From NCBI GenBank assembly GCA_001270045.2, contig DF970666.1, positions 384,484 through 448,483 of the forward strand: DNA of 64,000 nt, read 5' to 3'. The notes under the pieces are model-generated. The model was not told where the DNA came from. It did no database searches and saw only the letters and a program-made list of their open reading frames with translations. Shown here piece after piece: positions 4,618-26,577 of the stretch (positions are counted from its first letter, which is position 1; each line of letters opens with the position of its first letter). A program made the translations under genes and the position numbers. Source of the DNA: Bacteroidales bacterium 6E (GTDB taxonomy: Bacteria; Bacteroidota; Bacteroidia; Bacteroidales; Prolixibacteraceae).

Positions 4618-4687
4618 GTCATCCTGAACGAAGTGAAGGACCTCGAAGTGAAGGACCTCAAGGAGAACGACCTCAACGCGAAGGACC
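4618..4687. repeat. 15-bp tandem repeat array, right copy
   Basis: Head gtcatcctga followed by units gaagtgaaggacctc at 4630-4644 and 4645-4659, a diverged unit at 4660-4674 and a partial one after it. It is in the same orientation as the array at 20-102 and ends about five bases from the stop codon of the SRAP gene. Confidence 0.85.
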
Positions 4688-26048: not shown

Positions 26049-26112
26049 GGTTTTCAGATGTGGCGAAGCCACATCTGAAAACCCGTGATAAAAGGGTCAG
26101 CGCAGCTGACCC
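26049..26112. repeat. Two hairpins with GAA and GCA loops
   Basis: 26049-26083: 16-bp perfect arms (ggttttcagatgtggc) around gaa. 26094-26112: 8-bp perfect arms (gggtcagc) around gca. They lie between the MBL gene and the broken DUF202 gene. Confidence 0.88.
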
Positions 26113-26130
26113 CTACAGTCATTTAAAAAA

Positions 26131-26463
26131 ATGTTTATGCCGTATAAAAATTATTTACCAAGATTGAGGCTCTTTAGCCACACCTTTGAAAACCGTGAAC
26201 AGATCATCCTGAGGGATTACCTGGCCCTGGAGCGCACGCGCCTCGCCAATGAGCGGACGCTGCTGTCGTACATCCGTACGTCCTAATATATGTTGCTGGG
26301 CGGGATAGCCTTCCTGCAGATGACCGAATTCAGGGAAATCCAGTGGCTGGGGTATGTGTCACTGGGAATCAGTGGTGTTTCCCTGGTGGTTGGAATCACA
26401 AGGTATCTGGTCATTAATGTCAGGTTGAAAAGGTATTACGAGGAGGCGCGCGATAAAGGATGA
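26131..26463 (+). pseudogene. DUF202 membrane protein gene split by an in-frame TAA
   Basis: One 110-codon frame from ATG 26131 to TGA 26461-26463 is interrupted only by TAA at 26284-26286. Upstream it reads LALERTRLANERTLLSYIRT then S; downstream YMLLGGIAFLQM and a second hydrophobic stretch (SLGISGVSLVVGITRYLVI). This is the DUF202 pattern (ANERTLLxxIRTS followed by membrane helices). The stop sits exactly where the first helix should begin, so neither half would be functional alone. Since the frame and sense are kept on both sides, the change is recent, or a sequencing error. An ATG at 26290 could restart a 57-residue product. The gene's own TGA lies in the flanking 27-bp repeat. Confidence 0.8.
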
Positions 26464-26577
26464 CATCCTTTTAAATTTTAGAGGATGTCATCCTTTTGAG
26501 TGAAACCAAGGATGTCATCCTTTTGAGTGAAACCAAGGATGTCATCCTTTTGAGTGAAACCAAGGATGTCATCCTTT
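26456..26577. repeat. 27-bp tandem repeat with built-in palindrome
   Basis: Perfect units at 26483-26509, 26510-26536 and 26537-26563, then a half unit at 26564-26577. Each holds aaggatg-t-catcctt, an odd-centre palindrome; a related copy aaaggatgacatccttt begins at 26456-26458. The outer copies encode the final codons (AAA GGA TGA, Lys-Gly-stop) of both the DUF202 pseudogene on + and the MFS gene on -. Confidence 0.92.

Follow-up and report, generated by a model that had tools for sequence, protein, structure and literature searches.

Dispersed hairpin-forming repeats supply the last codons and stop of neighboring genes in Bacteroidales bacterium 6E

The window analyzed here, a stretch of 64,000 nt from Bacteroidales bacterium 6E (Prolixibacteraceae), contains two convergent reading frames whose ends fall within one array of short palindromic repeats (Table 1). 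The plus-strand frame matches DUF202 (PF02656, E 5e-14 with its internal stop read as X) and sits between a metallo-beta-lactamase-fold (MBL) gene and an MFS transporter gene. The MBL-fold and MFS genes are also convergent neighbors in Draconibacterium, Maribellus and other Prolixibacteraceae, and no DUF202 homologue was found in the stretches fetched from those relatives. The DUF202 frame is interrupted by a TAA at 26284-26286 (codon 52) and is therefore a probable pseudogene, so that use of its end is doubtful. This TAA, which falls in the conserved RTS-L position of a frame whose remainder is intact, is either a recent nonsense change or a sequencing error. Two convergent genes ending in AAA GGA TGA had originally been predicted, and both frames do end in this way (GAT AAA GGA TGA for DUF202, GCC AAA GGA TGA for MFS), but they represent one intact gene and one that is probably dead. 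Two more perfect hairpins, GGTTTTCAGATGTGGC-GAA-GCCACATCTGAAAACC and GGGTCAGC-GC-AGCTGACCC, lie at 26049-26113, directly 3' of the MBL gene and upstream of the DUF202 frame; the first long arm occurs a single time in the 390 kb read.

Table 1. Features at the convergent locus, in window coordinates.
Feature	Position	Strand	Evidence or remark
MBL-fold gene, PF12706	25284..26045	+	Conserved convergent neighbor of MFS gene in relatives
DUF202 (PF02656) frame, in-frame TAA, probable pseudogene	26131..26463	+	Ends AAA GGA TGA in leftmost repeat copy
AAA GGA TGA, last codons of interrupted DUF202 frame, in leftmost repeat copy	26455..26463	+	
Whole repeat array, five AGGATGWCATCCT cores	26455..26577	.	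Direct read and tandem repeat call
25-bp-spaced inverted pair, long hairpin	26455..26496	.	Arms 21 nt, 90% complementary
Tandem 27-bp units AGGATGTCATCCTTTTGAGTGAAACCA	26482..26577	+	3.6 copies, 100% identical (Tandem Repeats Finder: period 27, 100% matches)
AAA GGA TGA, last MFS codons, from rightmost repeat copy	26569..26577	-	
MFS transporter gene, PF07690, intact, 390 aa	26569..27741	-	PF07690 E 2.6e-27

The core AGGATGWCATCCT is present in five exact copies, at 26457, 26482, 26509, 26536 and 26563, and chance would give 1.65 matches in the whole 64,000-nt window even with two mismatches allowed. The repeat placed at 26456-26577 by the original prediction is thus a real array, with its true start at 26455. 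The leftmost copy is located 25 bp from the second, outside the 27-bp tandem series, and is inverted, with GAC on the plus strand versus GTC in the other four copies. Because of this inversion, copies one and two make up a hairpin pair, with arms at 26455-26475 and 26476-26496, and three perfect 27-bp units come after it. Two loci elsewhere in the genome (L066 and L075) belong to the same subfamily as this 25-bp-spaced inverted pair. Earlier description of the array as a tandem 27-bp palindromic repeat was correct as to the tandem 27-bp period, but only a core of 13-17 bp is palindromic, the 27-bp unit itself not being a palindrome, and the leftmost copy is both non-tandem and inverted. Nor can a single unit provide a stop in both directions, as had been suggested: the core is of odd length with A or T at its center, so TGA is found on just one strand of each core, and this, read directly from the letters, is the plus strand in the leftmost copy and the minus strand in the other four. 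It is the inversion of the outer copies, and not any two-way action of the units, that presents the same AAAGGATGA to genes arriving from opposite sides. The recent expansion proposed on the basis of perfect identity fits the 27-bp units, all of which are identical.

The array belongs to a family dispersed through the genome (G000, 4.44 Mb), which contains 186 core sites at ≤1 mismatch versus 1 for a reversed control, and 67 inverted pairs of the form GATGACATC-N4-30-GATGTCATC versus 0 for a control pattern. Among congeners, five such pairs were detected in G004 and none in five others, and other genomes of the family (Prolixibacteraceae) had 0-3; when the specific inner core was included, the pattern was found in this genome only, among 295 genomes of the order. 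Phages gave no match, and the 48-bp core pattern was not found in viral contigs. Rfam returned only spurious sub-threshold matches, mostly to microRNA families, caused by the hairpin.

Structure and position were evaluated in 56 clusters, picked from listed sites in 390 kb of sequence that comprised 29 stretches and the window. Start-to-start spacings of the cores were mostly 35-36, 25 or 18 bp. Cores of the 35-bp spacing form a 48-bp element with ends AGGATGAC.. and ..GTCATCCT (end sequence AGGATGACATC), and in 34 distinct elements of this length the 16 terminal positions of the arms pair, leaving the asymmetric inner core CCG-N10-CAACG unpaired. Changes in the arms are themselves paired and keep complementarity (A-T to C-G at position 6 and C-G to T-A at position 11, with numbering starting at 0). 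Tandem expansion from core to core was also seen at other loci, with units of 35 bp in L076 and 18 bp in L086. At 5024-8523 of L081, an AbiEii-like gene (PF08843) is surrounded by long arrays in which a GCC/GGC variant of the element recurs in units of ~110-160 bp. Separately, 15-bp tandem repeats, CGCAGCGAAGGACCC and AAGTGAAGGACCTCA, occur in the window at 32-90 and 4631-4687, and are apparently another short repeat family of the genome.

The elements are concentrated behind genes. Using a simple heuristic gene caller, with the MBL gene call in the window corrected by hand, we found that 25 of 41 intergenic clusters start no more than 50 bp from a stop codon that faces them, compared with a mean of 15.0 and a maximum of 22 in 5000 random placements within the same gaps. 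No convincing insertion inside a gene was seen; five elements that appeared to be internal were attributed to weak ORFs or to ORF calls that were too long and extended 5' of the probable start codon. On either strand the array was also predicted to fold far better than its shuffled counterparts (z about -7.7), and a 3' RNA-stabilizing or terminating role of the predicted hairpin is possible.

These properties raise the question of whether the elements are selected bidirectional terminators or 3' RNA-stabilizing hairpins and not selfish repeats, since this would account for strong hairpins on both strands, placement behind stop codons, and paired changes that keep the arms complementary. We consider it improbable, because no terminator-like site (GC-rich stem followed by a T run) was found in the window region, and because the family is missing from five congeners, so that relatives of these genes manage without it. 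Moreover, a terminator needs no sequence similarity between unrelated loci, and tandem expansion and arrays as large as those in L081 would not be expected. That the array is a cluster of operators, with its palindromic cores bound by a regulator protein, is very improbable: clustering of short palindromic cores and recurrence of the spacings 18, 25, 27 and 35 bp would suit such sites, but they are mostly at 3' ends and not at promoters, and the sequence shared by the loci extends beyond the 13-bp palindrome, taking in the 16-bp arms together with parts of the 48-bp element core.

As read from the sequence, the repeat gives the MFS gene and the DUF202 frame their last 2-3 residues and stop, with no real truncation of either. 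The MFS protein ends in ..WVRPKAKG, and its nearest orthologues that lack the repeat end in ..WLRTK (75% identity) or ..WLKKVKR (65% identity); the repeat makes it three residues longer than its closest orthologue. The DUF202 frame ends in ..RYYEEARDKG, and its homologues in ..NYYINNTEPNE (G010) and ..AYYSRQKEEAQQD (G006). It is most unlikely that the genes already ended there and the repeat merely adjoins them, for, while the C-terminal tails of MFS orthologues vary anyway (383-392 aa), the AAA GGA TGA codons fall within the repeat sequence itself and relatives have other end residues here and at two more loci. Repeat-free species with the same end codons at the same alignment position would have argued against repeat-supplied ends; none was found among the MFS and DUF202 homologues examined, all of which end otherwise, and this part of the idea therefore survives.

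If the repeat supplies gene ends at this locus, other genes in the genome might also be expected to end within it, and this was confirmed. The stop codon comes from the element in the gene for RsmE, which ends in ..ALVCAGKG (orthologues end in ..ALVNQD and ..ALVNE), in an AbiEii-like gene (..AKG), and in an unnamed ORF (..TG). A CDF transporter gene, ending in ..GS, uses the AG of the element for its TAG. In the gene for an RND pump the element is read in another frame, giving the end ..KKDVIL; the repeat-free orthologue in G001 is 92% identical and ends in ..EKRKPGIED, and the DNA alignment of the two is lost about where the element starts. Comparison of the RND, MFS and RsmE loci with those of congeners, where only the coding part aligns, revealed no empty site with both flanks kept. 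Intergenic sequence is too diverged between these species, and insertion is therefore deduced from the ends of orthologues and was not seen directly. The proposal that insertion of the repeat replaced the original gene ends is borne out in that the last codons come from the repeat and orthologues end differently, but replacement, judged from these alignments, would affect only 2-6 residues in a tail that is poorly conserved, with no truncation.

The family resembles REP and BIME sequences in being short, high-copy and palindromic, often arranged as inverted pairs and in clusters, mainly intergenic and mostly downstream of genes (PMC3733652, PMC2817692). Adjacent ORFs are also reported to take their stop codons from REP termini (PMC3733652, PMC2817692). 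In contrast to these sequences, the stop supplied here is mostly TGA, the 48-bp inverted pair itself looks like the unit, and neither a GTAG/CGTC tetranucleotide at the element end (GTAG is present only within the core of some copies) nor linkage to a RAYT gene was detected in the genome. The single PF01797 gene lies in another repeat family, and a RAYT (Y1) enzyme was accordingly rejected as the mover. Without the end tag, and with the Y1 gene in another repeat family, the elements do not belong to the tagged REP superfamilies. Around the Y1/RAYT gene (L031 1-2400; G000 C10 around 36178) there is more than 1 kb of the other palindromic repeat, CCCCGTAGGGGTGACA / AACCCCGTAGGGGTGACACGATTGT. G004, the other carrier of the present repeat, gave no PF01797 match in a genome that is only 66% complete.

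Bacterial MITEs (NEMIS/Correia, RUP, ERIC) are similar in being non-coding, bounded by terminal inverted repeats, adjacent to genes and sometimes fused in frame (PMC2229807), and the fusion of small mobile repeats to reading frames has been reviewed (PMC2229807). However, MITEs measure 70-300 bp (PMC3733652) and the element here is shorter, at 48 bp; target-site duplication was not detected, there being no clear excess of matching 2-8 bp flanks; and no partner transposon was found in a genome-wide search that covered the Y1 family. Rickettsia palindromic elements (RPEs) likewise give codons to genes (PMC2229807), but they are inserted in frame inside genes, whereas only last codons are provided here. 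The element works like a REP or a MITE, and we file it as a member of neither.

The findings are best explained, and we consider this likely, if the array arose by local tandem expansion from a REP/MITE-type family of non-coding, hairpin-forming repeats that is dispersed in the genome and recently multiplied in this Prolixibacteraceae lineage. A typical element, of ~48 bp with two 16-bp inverted arms and an asymmetric core between them, tends to lie directly behind genes, where losing the original 3' end may be tolerated. One that landed on a stop codon or immediately ahead of it would cause the gene to read into the outer arm, where AAAGGATGA gives Lys-Gly-stop in one of the three frames and other frames run to a later stop within the element, as in the RND pump. 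Identical cores probably allowed slippage or unequal crossing-over, and with it amplification of the 27-bp units; the core-to-core tandem units in L076 and L086 are consistent with this route. If transcribed, the array would form a strong 3' hairpin that may protect or end transcripts.

Takeover of the last codons and stop of neighboring genes by REP-type repeats has already been published, and what is new is the lineage-specific family only, which adds one more case and no new principle. The locus offers a clean local example of such a takeover, with repeat-free orthologues for comparison. An unlikely possibility is that this recently spread family, which has 16-bp arms and lacks a REP tag, a RAYT and target duplications, is moved by an enzyme favoring sites directly behind stop codons; if so, the 3' ends of genes would be rewritten repeatedly.
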